Source: an uncultured Clostridia bacterium (GTDB lineage: Bacteria; Bacillota; Clostridia; Christensenellales; UBA1242). From it: a stretch of DNA of 48,448 bases. Of this stretch, positions 19,454-48,238 are shown in pieces. The translations under genes and the position numbers were made by a program. Under the pieces are notes generated by a model. It was not told where the DNA came from. It saw only the letters and a program-made list of their open reading frames with translations, and searched no databases. Location of the stretch: the NCBI GenBank assembly GCA_944381825.1, contig CALWMK010000006.1:1-48448 (forward strand), given 5' to 3'. Each line of letters opens with the position of its first letter. Position 1 is the first letter of the stretch.

Positions 19454-20542
19454 ATGTTTGGTTTAAATTGTTTATCATCTGTATTTAGCACGATTTTGTA
19501 TATTGCGCTTGCAATAATTGTTCTTCTTCTTATGGTTTTAATCCATGAAACAGGACATTATGTTGCTGGAAGAATTTTAAAATTTAAAATTAATGAGTTT
19601 TCCATAGGTTTTGGAAAAGCTATTTTTTCTAAAACAAATAAGCGAGGTGAAAAAATTTCTCTTAGACTTTTCCCTCTTGGTGGATATTGTGCTTTTGAAG
19701 GTGAAAATGACGATGAAAAAAGCGAATTAAAAAAAGATTCTTTCAATGCTCAAAAACCATGGAAAAGAATAATAGTTTATTTGGCTGGTGTAACTTTTAA
19801 TTTAATTTCTGCTGTGGTTTTTTCTTTTATTTTGCTAGTGAGTTTTGGTTATGACATACCTGAAGTTTCAGCAATAGATAACAGATATTTGAATTCCTCT
19901 GCTTTTCAGGTTGGTGATGCAATTTATGAGGTGGATGGAACTAAAATAGATTTTATCAAAGAAAATACACTTTCTAATCTTCTTGCAAAATATAATGAAG
20001 GTGAAAAATTTGATTTGACAGTGAAAAGAAATGGGGAGTTTGTTACAATTCAAGTTTCATTGCAACAAGCCTTTGATGAAAGCAACAAACTTTTATTTGA
20101 TGAAGATGGCAAACCCATTTTGCGACTTGGAATTTCAACAACATCGCATCCTTTAAGTTTTGGTGAAGCCTTAGCCAGATGCGTGCCATTTACTGCTGGC
20201 TTAGTTTGGATGGTCTTGAAAAGTTTTTGGTTACTTATTACTTTTCAATTGCCGCTAAATCAAATAGGAGGACCTATTACTACCGTTTCTGTGATTGCAT
20301 CCCAAGCTTCCCAAGGATTGTCAACTTTGTTGTTTTTACTACCATTAATTGCTGCCAATTTGGGAGTATTTAACCTGTTGCCTTTCCCGGCTTTAGATGG
20401 ATCTCATGTAATTTTCACAACTATTGAATGGATAAGAAAAAAACCAATTAACAGAACTGTGGAGGGGTATATTCATTTTGCGGGCTTGGTAATTCTTTTT
20501 GCCTTTGTGATTTTAGTGGATATATTGCATTTTGTGAGTTGA
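19454..20542 (+). CDS. rseP: RseP/RasP-type site-2 metalloprotease
   Basis: This 362-residue intramembrane zinc protease cleaves anti-sigma factors and signal-peptide remnants. The zinc motif HETGH is at 31-35 in the first helix. FSIGFGKAIFS, FPLGGYCAFEGE and a single PDZ domain (about 135-225) follow. The second metal motif is NLLPFPALDG near 312. AAAGGGAAA precedes the ATG. Its location after cdsA matches Firmicute order, except that dxr (before) and ispG (after) are missing. It overlaps the following frame by a few bases or abuts it, depending on the start. Confidence 0.95.
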   Translation: MFGLNCLSSVFSTILYIALAIIVLLLMVLIHETGHYVAGRILKFKINEFSIGFGKAIFSKTNKRGEKISLRLFPLGGYCAFEGENDDEKSELKKDSFNAQKPWKRIIVYLAGVTFNLISAVVFSFILLVSFGYDIPEVSAIDNRYLNSSAFQVGDAIYEVDGTKIDFIKENTLSNLLAKYNEGEKFDLTVKRNGEFVTIQVSLQQAFDESNKLLFDEDGKPILRLGISTTSHPLSFGEALARCVPFTAGLVWMVLKSFWLLITFQLPLNQIGGPITTVSVIASQASQGLSTLLFLLPLIAANLGVFNLLPFPALDGSHVIFTTIEWIRKKPINRTVEGYIHFAGLVILFAFVILVDILHFVS

Positions 20543-20544
20543 AA

Positions 20545-22095
20545 ATGGAAAATTTAACAAAAGAAATAAATAAACATTTTAAAGATAAATATGAGTTTTT
20601 AAGACTTTGGTCTTGTGTTTATGATGTGCAAGAAAAAGTTTGTAAACTCATATTTCTTTTTCCTGAAACTATTTATGAAATAACCGATGAAATGAGAGGA
20701 GAAATTGAAATTTTTTTAAAACATTTGCTTTCTTTAAATGGGAAGTTAATTATTACATATAAAAAAAGTTTTTTACACGAGGATTTGATTCAAAAATCAG
20801 TTATGACATTTTTAGAAAAAAATTATATTTCAATTTCTTCAGAGATTTTGCAAAAAAATGTTGAGGTTTTAAAACAGCCTAATAATGTTTCAGTTACACT
20901 TTCGTTGCAAAAAGAATTAAAAAAATATTTTTTAGAAAATAAAATTTTTAATGATTTAAAAGATTATTTAGAAAGAATTTATTATTCCAGCTTCAGCATT
21001 CAAATAAACGAACTGGAATCGGTTGAAACTGAAATTTTATCTAAAAGAAAAAATTTTTTAAAAGAAGAAAAAAAAGACAAAATCTTGCGTTATAAAGTCA
21101 AAGAAAATGTTGTTCTTATTGGCAAAGATATATCACCTATGCCTGAACTTATTTCCAATCAAAAAGATGAAAAAATCGGTTTGATTTTGGCTGGCAAAAT
21201 TAAAAATATTTCAAAAAAAACATTTAAATCTAAAAGAAATAAAAATAAGGATATTGACAATTACTATTATACCTTCGAAATTAACGATACAACTGGAATA
21301 ATAAATGCAATACATTTTTCTTCAAAAACTAATGAACGTAAACTTGACAAACTTCAAGAGGATGCAACCTATTTATTTTTAGGTGATTTAAGAAAAAACA
21401 ATTATAATAAACTTACATATTATATTAAAAATATAAGTTATTGTCTTTTCGATGAAAGCGAAATAATAAAGAGTAAAAGGGCAAATGAAGAAATTATCGA
21501 ACTTAAAGATTCATATCAATTCGTTTCACCTAAAACTTATGTTAGCACAGTTCAAGAATCACTTTTTGATTCTGTTAATGATTATAACGATTTTATTTTG
21601 CAAAATAATTTCGTGGTATTTGATGTTGAAACAACAGGATTAGAGCCTGAAACTTGTGAAATTATTGAAATTGGCGCTATTAAAATTGAAAAAGGAAAAC
21701 TTACAGATACATTTCAAACACTAGTGAAACCTAAAAAAGAAATTCCTTCGTTAATTACAGACATAACAGGAATTGACAACAATATGGTTGCAGATGCACC
21801 TAGCATAAAAAAAGTAATTGCAGATTTTGTTTTATTTTCTAAAAATTGTGTACTTTCTGGTTATAATGTTTCATTTGATATGCGCTTTTTACAAAATGCA
21901 GGAAAAGAAATTAATTATCACTTTGAAAATCAAGTTGAAGATACAATGGTGTTTGCGAGAAACAAACTTTTTTTAGGCAATTATACGCTAAAAAATGTTG
22001 CTAAACATCTTAATGTTTCATTAAAAGAAGCTCATAGAGCGCTCAATGATGCAATTGCAACAGCAAAAGTACTTCTTGCTTTAAACAAAAAATAA
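20545..22095 (+). CDS. PolC-derived NTD-OB-exonuclease without polymerase
   Basis: This 516-residue protein sits where polC normally lies, between rseP and rimP. Residues 1-200 resemble the PolC N-terminal domain. About 210-300 is an OB fold like PolC's (LAGKIKNISKKTF, TFEINDTTGIINAIHF). About 355-516 is a DnaQ-type 3'-5' exonuclease with Exo I D360/E362 (FDVETTGLE), Exo II D445 (GYNVSFDMRFL) and Exo III H497/D502 (HRALNDA). The PHP, palm, finger and tau-binding parts (about 900 residues in full PolC) are absent, and the frame ends right at the exonuclease boundary. It may serve as a separate proofreading subunit or repair nuclease. A TTG at 20539 is an alternative start. Confidence 0.85.
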   Translation: MENLTKEINKHFKDKYEFLRLWSCVYDVQEKVCKLIFLFPETIYEITDEMRGEIEIFLKHLLSLNGKLIITYKKSFLHEDLIQKSVMTFLEKNYISISSEILQKNVEVLKQPNNVSVTLSLQKELKKYFLENKIFNDLKDYLERIYYSSFSIQINELESVETEILSKRKNFLKEEKKDKILRYKVKENVVLIGKDISPMPELISNQKDEKIGLILAGKIKNISKKTFKSKRNKNKDIDNYYYTFEINDTTGIINAIHFSSKTNERKLDKLQEDATYLFLGDLRKNNYNKLTYYIKNISYCLFDESEIIKSKRANEEIIELKDSYQFVSPKTYVSTVQESLFDSVNDYNDFILQNNFVVFDVETTGLEPETCEIIEIGAIKIEKGKLTDTFQTLVKPKKEIPSLITDITGIDNNMVADAPSIKKVIADFVLFSKNCVLSGYNVSFDMRFLQNAGKEINYHFENQVEDTMVFARNKLFLGNYTLKNVAKHLNVSLKEAHRALNDAIATAKVLLALNKK

Positions 22096-22200: not shown

Positions 22201-22229
22201 TTGATAAATCAGAAATTTAATGATATAAT
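22201..22229 (+). promoter_or_regulatory. promoter of the rimP-nusA-infB operon
   Basis: TTGATA (22201-22206), a 17-base spacer and a perfect TATAAT (22224-22229) with an extended TGA. The predicted transcript starts near 22236. Confidence 0.8.
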
Positions 22230-22243
22230 AGCAATGCTAGATA

Positions 22244-22267
22244 AAGAGTGGGCGGTTGCCCACTCTT
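22244..22267 (+). promoter_or_regulatory. leader hairpin upstream of rimP
   Basis: AAGAGTGGGC (22244-22253) pairs perfectly with GCCCACTCTT (22258-22267) around GGTT. It is the most GC-rich element in the area. No T-tract follows, so it is not a standard terminator. It begins within about 10 bases of the predicted 5' end of the operon mRNA and ends 11 bases before AAAGGAGGG. It could stabilise the 5' end or mediate control of this operon. Confidence 0.75.
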
Positions 22268-22287: not shown

Positions 22288-22752
22288 ATGGCTGGTGTTG
22301 TTGAAAAAATGTGTCAAGAAGCATTAACTTCCAAAATCGAAGCTATGGGATATGAAGTTGTTGAAATTGAGTATTCAAAAAAAGTTGATGGTATGAATTT
22401 GACTTTTGTTATTGATTGTAATAACCATTTAATAACATTAGATGATTGTGAAAAAGTTCATCGATTTTTAGACGAAGAACTTGACAAATTAAATCCAACA
22501 AATGATGCTCCTTATATTTTAAATGTTGAATCGGTTGGTTTGGATAGACCAATAAAAACTGAAAAAGATTTTCTTAGAAACAAAAATAAAGAAGTTGAAA
22601 TTAGGCTATATGCTCCTTTTAATAATAAGAAAATTTATCAAGGCAATTTGTTAGAATTTGATGATGACAAGGTTGTTATTGAAAGTTTAGGACAAAAAAT
22701 TGTTTTTGATAAAAATGCTGTAAGCCTAATAACTCCAATAATTAAATTTTAA
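22288..22752 (+). CDS. rimP: RimP, 30S ribosome maturation factor
   Basis: The 154-residue assembly factor for the 30S subunit has an N-terminal domain with GYEVVEIEYSKKVDGMNLTF (about 19-38) and CEKVHRFLDEELD, and the conserved YILNVESVGLDRPIKTEKDF (about 79-98). A C-terminal SH3-like barrel follows (VEIRLYAPFNNKKIYQGNL). AAAGGAGGG lies ahead of the ATG. It is the first gene of the long rimP-nusA-infB operon, behind its own promoter and a leader hairpin. Confidence 0.95.
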   Translation: MAGVVEKMCQEALTSKIEAMGYEVVEIEYSKKVDGMNLTFVIDCNNHLITLDDCEKVHRFLDEELDKLNPTNDAPYILNVESVGLDRPIKTEKDFLRNKNKEVEIRLYAPFNNKKIYQGNLLEFDDDKVVIESLGQKIVFDKNAVSLITPIIKF

Positions 22753-44539: not shown

Positions 44540-46018
44540 ATGGAAAATTATGAAATATACAATGATATAGCTACAAGAACAAATGGCGATATTTACATAG
44601 GCGTGGTTGGACCTGTCAGATGTGGCAAATCAACTTTCATTACTAAGTTTATGGAAAACTTGGTAATTCCTAATATTGATAACAAACATTCTAGACAACG
44701 CGCAATTGACGAATTGCCACAATCTGGTGAAGGTAAAACAATTATGACAACTCAGCCTAAATTTGTGCCTAATGAGGCGGTAAAAATAACTTTAAACAGC
44801 AACATTGAAATGAAAGTAAGGATGGTTGATTGTGTTGGTTATATGGTCGATGGAGCAATGGGTTTTGAAGAAAATAAAAAGCCAAGATTAGTCAAAACTC
44901 CATGGAGTGAAGAAGACATGCCTTTTGAAGAGGCGGCGGAACTTGGAACAAAAAAAGTTATTGTTGACCATTCCACAATTGGGATTGTGATGACAACAGA
45001 TGGTTCAATTTGTGAACTGCCAAGAGAAAGCTATCTTGAAGCAGAGGAACGAGTTGTTTCCGAAATGCTTAGAGAAAATAAACCATTTGTAATTGTGGTA
45101 AACTCAAGAAATCCAAAAGATGAAGAATGCAAAAAACTTGCAAAATCTTTAGAGAGAAAGTATGAAGTTCCAGTTATTGCAATCAATGCCAAAGAACTTG
45201 AGTCGCAAGATGTTGACAAAATTTTTGAAAAAATTTTGCTTGAATTTCCTATTAAATCATTAAAAATAAAAATGCCAGATTGGCTTAGAGCTCTTGCTTT
45301 TAATGATGAAATTATCTCTTCTATTATTGAAGAAATAAAAAAATTTGGAGAAAATATTAGCAAAATTGGTCAAATAGACAAAACCAATGTTGCATTTTTA
45401 GAAAGTGAAGATTTTGAACCAGTAACTGTGGGATCAATTAAAATGGGTGATGGAACAGTTTATTTTGATGTCACTCCTAAACCTCACTTATTTTATAAAG
45501 TACTTTCAAAACAATGTGGAACAGATATAACTGATGATTTACATTTAGTAAGTTATATTAAAACTCTTTCTTATGCAAAAAAACAATATGACAAACTTGA
45601 AAGCGCCTTAAAACAGGTTGAAGAAACAGGCTATGGAATTGTAACTCCTTCAACGGAAGAGCTTAAACTAGAAGATCCTCAAATCGTGAAACAAGGTTCT
45701 AGATTTGGCATGAAATTAAAGGCTTCAGCTCCAAGTTTGCATATAATGAAAGTTGATATTGAAACCGAGATAAGTCCTTTAGTAGGAACTCAACAACAAA
45801 GTGAGGAATTGGCTCAACATCTTATGAGTGAATTTGAAAATAATCCAACATCTATTTGGGAAACAAACATTTTTGGAAAATCGCTAAACTCATTAGTTAC
45901 AGAAGGTATTAACTCAAAAATTGTCACAATGCCAGCAGAAGCTCAAAGAAAAATGAGAAGAACTCTTGGAAAAATTATTAATGAAGGAAAGGGCGGAATT
46001 ATCTGTATCTTATTATAA
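44540..46018 (+). CDS. spoIVA: SpoIVA, spore coat morphogenetic ATPase
   Basis: This 492-residue ATPase polymerises on the forespore surface as the base of the spore coat, recruited by SpoVM. The Walker A GPVRCGKSTFITKFM (about 24-38) follows the family's YEIYNDIATRTNGDIYIGVV N-terminus. DCVGYMVDGAMGF (about 98-110) and VVNSRNPKDEECKKLAKSL are TRAFAC-like features of SpoIVA. The C-terminus is the conserved KMRRTLGKIINEGKGGIICI. Length matches the family. Its presence implies a spore former or a recent descendant. GGAGGA precedes the ATG. Confidence 0.96.
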   Translation: MENYEIYNDIATRTNGDIYIGVVGPVRCGKSTFITKFMENLVIPNIDNKHSRQRAIDELPQSGEGKTIMTTQPKFVPNEAVKITLNSNIEMKVRMVDCVGYMVDGAMGFEENKKPRLVKTPWSEEDMPFEEAAELGTKKVIVDHSTIGIVMTTDGSICELPRESYLEAEERVVSEMLRENKPFVIVVNSRNPKDEECKKLAKSLERKYEVPVIAINAKELESQDVDKIFEKILLEFPIKSLKIKMPDWLRALAFNDEIISSIIEEIKKFGENISKIGQIDKTNVAFLESEDFEPVTVGSIKMGDGTVYFDVTPKPHLFYKVLSKQCGTDITDDLHLVSYIKTLSYAKKQYDKLESALKQVEETGYGIVTPSTEELKLEDPQIVKQGSRFGMKLKASAPSLHIMKVDIETEISPLVGTQQQSEELAQHLMSEFENNPTSIWETNIFGKSLNSLVTEGINSKIVTMPAEAQRKMRRTLGKIINEGKGGIICILL

Positions 46019-47806: not shown

Positions 47807-47880
47807 GCGGGTGTAGTTCAGTGGTAGAACTCCAGCCTTCCAAGCTGGTCGCGAGGGTCCGATTCCCTTCACCCGCTCCA
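47807..47880 (+). tRNA. tRNA-Gly(TCC)
   Basis: The acceptor GCGGGTG pairs with CACCCGC; discriminator T and encoded CCA follow. The anticodon loop CTTCCAA in CCAGC/GCTGG reads TCC. It is the first gene of the five-tRNA operon. Confidence 0.97.
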
Positions 47881-47886
47881 AATTTT

Positions 47887-47963
<77 letters not shown>

Positions 47964-47990
47964 CCATTTGCTTATGGTTGTTGTTGGTGG

Positions 47991-48065
47991 TGGGGTGTCG
48001 CCAAGCGGTAAGGCATGGGACTCTGACTCCCACATTCCTAGGTTCGAATCCTAGCACCCCAGCCA
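47991..48065 (+). tRNA. tRNA-Gln(CTG)
   Basis: The acceptor TGGGGTG pairs with CACCCCA, then G and CCA. The anticodon loop CTCTGAC in TGGGA/TCCCA reads CTG. It is a close relative of the next tRNA, so a duplication gave both glutamine isoacceptors. Confidence 0.96.
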
Positions 48066-48078
48066 GATTGATAACTAA

Positions 48079-48153
48079 TGGGGTGTAGCCAAGCGGTAAG
48101 GCACGAGACTTTGACTCTCGCATGCGTAGGTTCAAATCCTGCCACCCCAGCCA
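48079..48153 (+). tRNA. tRNA-Gln(TTG)
   Basis: The same acceptor as the preceding gene (TGGGGTG/CACCCCA), with an encoded CCA. The anticodon loop CTTTGAC reads TTG. The spacer to the CTG gene is 13 bases. Confidence 0.96.
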
Positions 48154-48162
48154 AATAAACAT

Positions 48163-48238
48163 GGTTCACTAGCTCAGCTGGTAGAGCACTTGACTTTTAA
48201 TCAAGGGGTCCCGGGTTCGAATCCCGGGTGAGCCACCA
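48163..48238 (+). tRNA. tRNA-Lys(TTT)
   Basis: The acceptor GGTTCAC pairs with GTGAGCC (one G-U pair), with an encoded CCA. The anticodon loop CTTTTAA reads TTT. Its 3' part from 48199 is repeated exactly at 48408-48448. Confidence 0.97.

Follow-up and report, generated by a model that had tools for sequence, protein, structure and literature searches.

A stand-alone NTD-OB-exonuclease protein derived from PolC, kept in Clostridia without the PolC polymerase and a candidate proofreader for DnaE1

The window considered here, the whole stretch of 48,448 nucleotides that was analysed from an uncultured Clostridia bacterium, carries an open reading frame of 516 amino acids plus stop (20545..22095, + strand, as are all other parts of this locus) which encodes a polC-derived stand-alone protein made of an N-terminal domain (NTD), an OB fold and an exonuclease. 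As an earlier note on this DNA had stated, the gene sits between rseP (19454..20542) and rimP (22288..22752), two neighbours assigned by conserved synteny. Its start codon is the ATG at 20545, which the rseP stop abuts or overlaps, an alternative TTG at 20539 being the one that overlaps this stop. On the 3' side the locus is delimited by a promoter-like site and a leader hairpin of the rimP-nusA-infB operon (22201..22267), which occupy the 192-nt gap between the gene and rimP; no polymerase remnant lies in this gap ahead of rimP, again as the earlier note had claimed. The promoter-like site (22201-22229) is strong (11/12), and the hairpin GAGUGGGC/GCCCACUC (22244-22267) has a fold z-score of -3.8 and no Rfam match. 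Across relatives rseP upstream and rimP-nusA downstream are conserved neighbours of the gene. In one genome (G023, L033) it is inverted with respect to rseP and rimP, and co-transcription with rseP is therefore not essential. Elsewhere in the window, which comes from a genome of ~1 Mb, are a complete sporulation gene, spoIVA (44540-46018; Pfam E 2.5e-116), and a cluster of five tRNA genes (47807-48235).

The protein displays the following order of domains: NI, the first KH-like subdomain of a PolC-type NTD (aa 1-93; 20545..20823), recognized from AlphaFold2 models and a profile match to the PolC NTD; NII, the second KH-like subdomain (aa 94-160; 20824..21024), whose fold matches type II KH domains; the OB fold (aa 185-302; 21097..21450), recognized from Pfam OB matches and the model; a linker (aa 303-352; 21451..21600) at the place of the N-terminal half of the PHP domain in full PolC; and a DnaQ/DEDDh 3'-5' exonuclease domain (aa 353-516; 21601..22092). 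The linker includes a clamp-binding-like QxxLF motif, QESLF (aa 337-341; 21553..21567), 23 residues ahead of the first catalytic aspartate. The catalytic residues D360, E362, D445, H497 and D502, described as intact by the earlier note, are all five present. Pfam detects RNase_T at residues 357-510 (E 2.4e-33), preceded by a weak OB match, and OB matches in 32 of 41 stand-alone members; the closest solved sequence is the T. maritima PolC exonuclease (E 2.5e-31). The Pfam models of PolC NI and NII match none of the stand-alone proteins singly; they barely match the full PolCs of the order either, and the identity of the NTD was hence settled by profile comparison, in which the NTD-OB region is collinear with that of full PolCs from the same order (hhalign probability 99.3, E 8.6e-21).

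An AlphaFold2 model built from 41 relatives (mean pLDDT 90.5, pTM 0.52: the domains are reliable, their mutual arrangement is not) has two KH-like domains, an OB fold, the linker and the exonuclease, at whose helix the chain terminates. The best Foldseek match of the whole model is the E. faecium PolC (9qpc, E 1.2e-17); the matches listed beyond it are exonucleases, and the NTD was therefore folded alone. In this form NII aligns to the KH domains of ribosomal protein S3, Era and EngA with Z of about 8-9. Type II KH domains come first in the NTD-alone search when ranked by Z, and periplasmic ring and BON-type proteins when ranked by Foldseek E-value; tau domain V was not among the matches listed for it. 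A type II KH resemblance has already been proposed for the PolC NTD (PMC3919608), and a kinship of its subdomains with tau domain V has been described (PMC12926913). That the KH-like NTD substitutes for a missing tau domain V, the dnaX frame of this genome being just 386 aa, was considered and rejected, since a tau-like segment lies in the -1 frame; judging by the sequence, tau is probably made by frameshifting in the source genome. At a set of dnaX loci (L224 at G000:C1:54000-57000, L227-L232, L238 and L239) the frame stops at 364-410 aa right after an A-tract, downstream of which a tau-like C-terminal segment continues in the -1 frame; dnaX is one long frame in the sisters G008, G025 and G001. 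The A-tract looks like a site of programmed frameshifting or slippage that would yield gamma and tau.

Features of both the PolC and the DnaQ families are combined in this protein. The NTD with two KH-like subdomains followed by an OB fold, and the DEDDh exonuclease, are those of PolC; absent are the PHP domain around the exonuclease and the Pol3 palm, thumb, fingers and HhH (TIGR01405 137.7 bits, cut-off 1043), and the clamp motif is internal, ahead of the exonuclease, instead of at the extreme C-terminus. The DEDDh fold and residues are also those of DnaQ: the score on TIGR00573 (108.6 bits) exceeds the cut-off of 71.5, and the exonuclease matches the fold of epsilon with Z 22.7. It falls outside the dnaQ_proteo equivalog (TIGR01406 80.9 bits against 222.7) and is without the C-terminal tail that binds the DnaE PHP domain. 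In full PolC the exonuclease interrupts the PHP domain, strands of which (LHxHTxMSxxDG ... ITDHGV) precede it; these strands are absent from the stand-alone proteins. The missing piece is larger than the C-terminal part of PolC: the N-terminal half of the PHP domain is gone too, and a linker of ~50 aa with QESLF is found instead. The earlier note was right that the NTD, OB fold and exonuclease are all that remain; it overlooked that the PHP part ahead of the exonuclease has gone as well, and that a QxxLF motif stands in its place.

Full PolCs of the order mostly end in the clamp motif, QxSLF. The linker of the stand-alone proteins bears QxxLF, usually 23 residues ahead of the first catalytic Asp: it is found in 58 of the 62 whose exonuclease looks active, where shuffled linkers would give 2.3, and in 32 of a second set of 35, which shares a few genomes with the first and includes an unrelated exonuclease (L201); none of 39 full PolCs has it at the same place. 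Q337 is conserved in 97% and F341 in 88%, neighbouring linker positions mostly in 15-45%, and across the species of one genus the motif is fixed (21/21) inside a fast-evolving linker. None of the five proteins with a lost or dead exonuclease (L067, L068, L069, L077 and L078, from three lineages) has it, a coupling of motif and exonuclease with a Fisher p of 1.3e-5 without phylogenetic correction. In bacteria QxxLF is the general consensus for binding to the clamp, and peptides of this type bind the DnaN of B. subtilis (PMC12309361). The hallmark of clamp-binding proteins that was looked for, a conserved QxxLF-type motif in an accessible linker, is present, and we infer from the sequence that the motif is clamp-binding-like.

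A search of 59 relatives recovered matches in all of them. Nearly all of the family's 35 genera, and about a dozen further families within the order, have a match that takes up a whole frame of ~505-560 aa. When sampled across the family, 284 of 297 genomes, 188 of the 190 good genomes and 42 of 42 genera have a match; the protein occupies the same locus in those 188 and in at least a dozen sister families. One genus of this sample (g220) gave weak scores, similar to those of the exonuclease-less L067, L068 and L069. Phage sequences gave exonuclease-level matches only, none spanning 80% of the query. Among the 92 stand-alone proteins in which the exonuclease region is complete, 91 have all five catalytic residues, and the mean frequency of the top residue is 0.59 in the exonuclease against 0.30-0.41 in the NTD and OB. 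The closest pair among 21 species of one genus has a dN/dS of 0.053 overall and 0.037 in the exonuclease at a dS of 0.92; other close pairs of this genus give 0.04-0.10, usually lower in the exonuclease than in the NTD, with dS near saturation for most pairs, such that the ratio is quantitatively reliable for the closest pair only. As the locus is one normally expected to hold polC, a pseudogene or an assembly error of a normal polC might be suspected. However, the same architecture and locus recur in dozens of genera from separate assemblies, purifying selection is strong and the polymerase is nowhere else; this possibility is already refuted and has practically no probability left. The identical architecture and locus across those assemblies likewise exclude a read-level error, which the earlier note had named as a danger, and clade-wide conservation with strong purifying selection upholds its view that the gene has not decayed. 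The stand-alone protein is neither artefact nor decay.

The source genome has a single Pol3-alpha match (PF07733), a DnaE of 1191 aa. TIGR01405 retrieves only the stand-alone exonuclease and this DnaE, and a PolC polymerase or PHP piece was found neither in the source genome nor in 45 of 46 further genomes from its group. The stand-alone protein is the only RNase_T/DnaQ-type exonuclease of the source genome. Of the 47 genomes in this group, 45 show just one Pol3-alpha match, which is DnaE, one has a single gene split over two contig ends (G020) and one has no match (G012); 16 further genomes with the stand-alone protein have a single DnaE in 15 cases and no match in one. A full polC elsewhere is excluded by these searches for the source genome and the group. 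Among the 59 genomes, the stand-alone protein and full PolC never occur together: those with full PolC have PolC and DnaE, and those with the stand-alone protein have DnaE only. One genome with PolC only (G045) probably lacks dnaE in its assembly. In a tree of DnaE (57 rows) a single branch divides the two states (SH-aLRT 100), and the sister families outside the stand-alone branch keep full PolC. In a class-wide sample PolC exceeds the model cut-off in 219 of 245 genomes and in none of nine sampled members of two families with the stand-alone protein; PolC is therefore the ancestral state, lost in a single lineage. The earlier note had proposed a domain-level fission, and a true fission would have the PolC polymerase core encoded elsewhere and joining the stand-alone protein in trans. 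The PF07733 and TIGR01405 searches, which give DnaE as the sole C-family polymerase of the source genome, and the counts from the 47-genome group leave that version refuted and of negligible probability, unless the gene were hidden in an assembly gap of every genome. The event is a loss of the polymerase with the proofreading half retained, not a fission. With this, one of the roles offered by the earlier note, service to a PolC core encoded elsewhere, falls away. The other, a proofreading subunit for a DnaE-type replicase, is the best reading, given the clade-wide conservation, the strong purifying selection and DnaE as the only C-family polymerase. The DnaE PHP signature HHDHEHCDH is kept in every complete sequence of both groups; by this sequence criterion the DnaEs are DnaE1-like with a potentially active PHP site.

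Some lineages are without an active exonuclease. Three genera that form one clade (G003, G006 and G014, with L069, L067 and L068) keep the NTD-OB in frames of 217-343 aa, and the exonuclease domain is absent; neither G006 nor G014 has any RNase_T-type exonuclease, the G014 genome being 83% complete. The dnaX frames of these three genomes are also short (314-332 aa). The proteins of G053 (L077) and G050 (L078) are full-length with ruined exonuclease active sites. Retention of the NTD-OB without an exonuclease, or with a degenerate one, indicates that it has a role of its own. Carried to its extreme, this would make the NTD-OB an essential replisome adaptor that binds the clamp loader, SSB or DnaE, and the exonuclease a dispensable passenger, to which the described kinship of the PolC NTD subdomains with tau domain V (PMC12926913) would also be congenial. 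We consider this quite improbable, as the exonuclease is the best conserved part in nearly all members, with its catalytic residues intact.

Taken together, the best explanation, and a probable one, is in our view an exonuclease that is tethered to the clamp and proofreads in trans for DnaE1; the nuclease activity, clamp binding, partner contacts and proofreading role of the protein are all inferred. The following scenario can be proposed. The ancestor of a clade of small-genome Clostridia lost the PolC polymerase, fingers, HhH, both PHP halves and the C-terminal clamp motif, leaving DnaE1 as its only C-family replicase. The stand-alone protein would most likely ride on the sliding clamp, the contact having moved from the lost PolC C-terminus to the QxxLF of the linker, and the KH-like/OB part might contact DnaE1, the clamp loader or single-stranded DNA. 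Contact of the NTD with the clamp loader or DnaE is plausible in view of the kinship described between its subdomains and tau domain V (PMC12926913). The exonuclease would then take off mismatched 3' ends left by DnaE1, as a PolC-derived analogue of E. coli epsilon beside an intact DnaE1 PHP site. Errors of B. subtilis DnaE are corrected in trans by the exonuclease of PolC, within a complex of template, DnaE and PolC, and a PolC whose polymerase is dead but whose exonuclease is active makes synthesis by DnaE better (PMC5627055); by analogy, the stand-alone clade looks like this arrangement fixed in evolution. As the DnaE PHP site is intact, the stand-alone protein would be a second, not an obligatory, proofreader, and the organism may have two, where most DnaE1-only bacteria have one in a 2026 survey (PMC12926913). 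Against a trans proofreader stand this intact PHP site, the lineages that lost or ruined the exonuclease while keeping the NTD-OB, the shortness of the QxxLF motif and the lack of an epsilon-like tail for the PHP domain, which leaves the DnaE contact unexplained. The same intact PHP site would also suit a clamp-bound nuclease of DNA repair or of the lagging strand, acting in mismatch-repair excision or Okazaki end trimming and not on the replicase: many proteins that bind the clamp act in repair, and the sole RNase_T-type exonuclease of a genome may cover several duties. Nevertheless, the ancestor of the gene was a replicase with a proofreading exonuclease, the NTD and OB typical of that replicase alone are kept, and the protein is found where the polymerase function was lost; we therefore deem a repair or lagging-strand role rather unlikely. 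Returning to the trans proofreader, a broader and more tentative version, possible though not our expectation, takes the N-terminal half of PolC as a replisome module that became a clamp-tethered trans proofreader for DnaE1 and persists in some descendants as an exonuclease-free NTD-OB adaptor. If true, the N-terminal domains of PolC would have an ancestral, polymerase-independent role, in contacting the clamp loader or DnaE, that is hidden within the full enzyme.

PolC counts as the main replicase of Firmicutes and, in Gram-positives, as a target for drugs. An entire family of Clostridia and also sister families run without it, yet keep its proofreading half, on the above reading for a DnaE1 replicase; this would represent a third packaging of DnaQ-type proofreading, besides the integral domain and epsilon. 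These lineages offer a natural experiment in what the PolC NTD, OB and exonuclease do without their polymerase, and make trans proofreading of DnaE by a PolC exonuclease directly testable. PolC inhibitors, ibezapolstat among them, are predicted to have no target in these bacteria. The 2026 survey of DNA polymerases in bacteria covered complete genomes and searched by polymerase domain (PMC12926913), and would probably not see the stand-alone protein.

Several known systems share features with this protein. It has the locus, NTD (NI and NII), OB and DEDDh exonuclease in common with the PolCs of B. subtilis, E. faecium and T. maritima; unlike these it is without PHP, palm, thumb, fingers, HhH and C-terminal clamp motif, and carries instead a QxxLF ahead of the exonuclease. 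E. coli DnaQ (Pol III epsilon) is likewise a separate DEDDh exonuclease polypeptide beside a DnaE1 replicase. Epsilon of E. coli also touches the clamp. In contrast to epsilon, the stand-alone protein is PolC-derived, with N-terminal KH-like and OB domains and without the C-terminal PHP-binding tail. The exonuclease-less PolC variants of Clostridia and Negativicutes (Timinskas and colleagues, PMC3919608) are likewise cases of PolC domain loss in Clostridia, and reciprocal to the present one: there the polymerase is kept and the exonuclease lost, here the polymerase is lost and the exonuclease kept. Pelotomaculum thermopropionicum and Ca. Desulforudis are Firmicutes with DnaE and without PolC (PMC3274465); the available part of that report presents these losses as isolated and does not mention a retained NTD-OB-exonuclease protein. 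The mycobacterial and Treponema DnaE1 systems with PHP and DnaQ similarly have two candidate proofreaders beside one DnaE1, and their DnaQ, unlike the stand-alone protein, is not described as a PolC remnant (PMC12926913). Already known, then, are exonuclease-less PolC, PolC loss in single Firmicutes and separate DnaQ subunits; literature searches confined to open-access papers turned up no PolC reduced to NTD-OB-exonuclease throughout a large clade, which is no proof of priority. The stand-alone protein should be filed neither as a PolC polymerase, whose defining domains it lacks, nor as an ortholog of epsilon, even though epsilon is what it resembles most in its presumed way of working.
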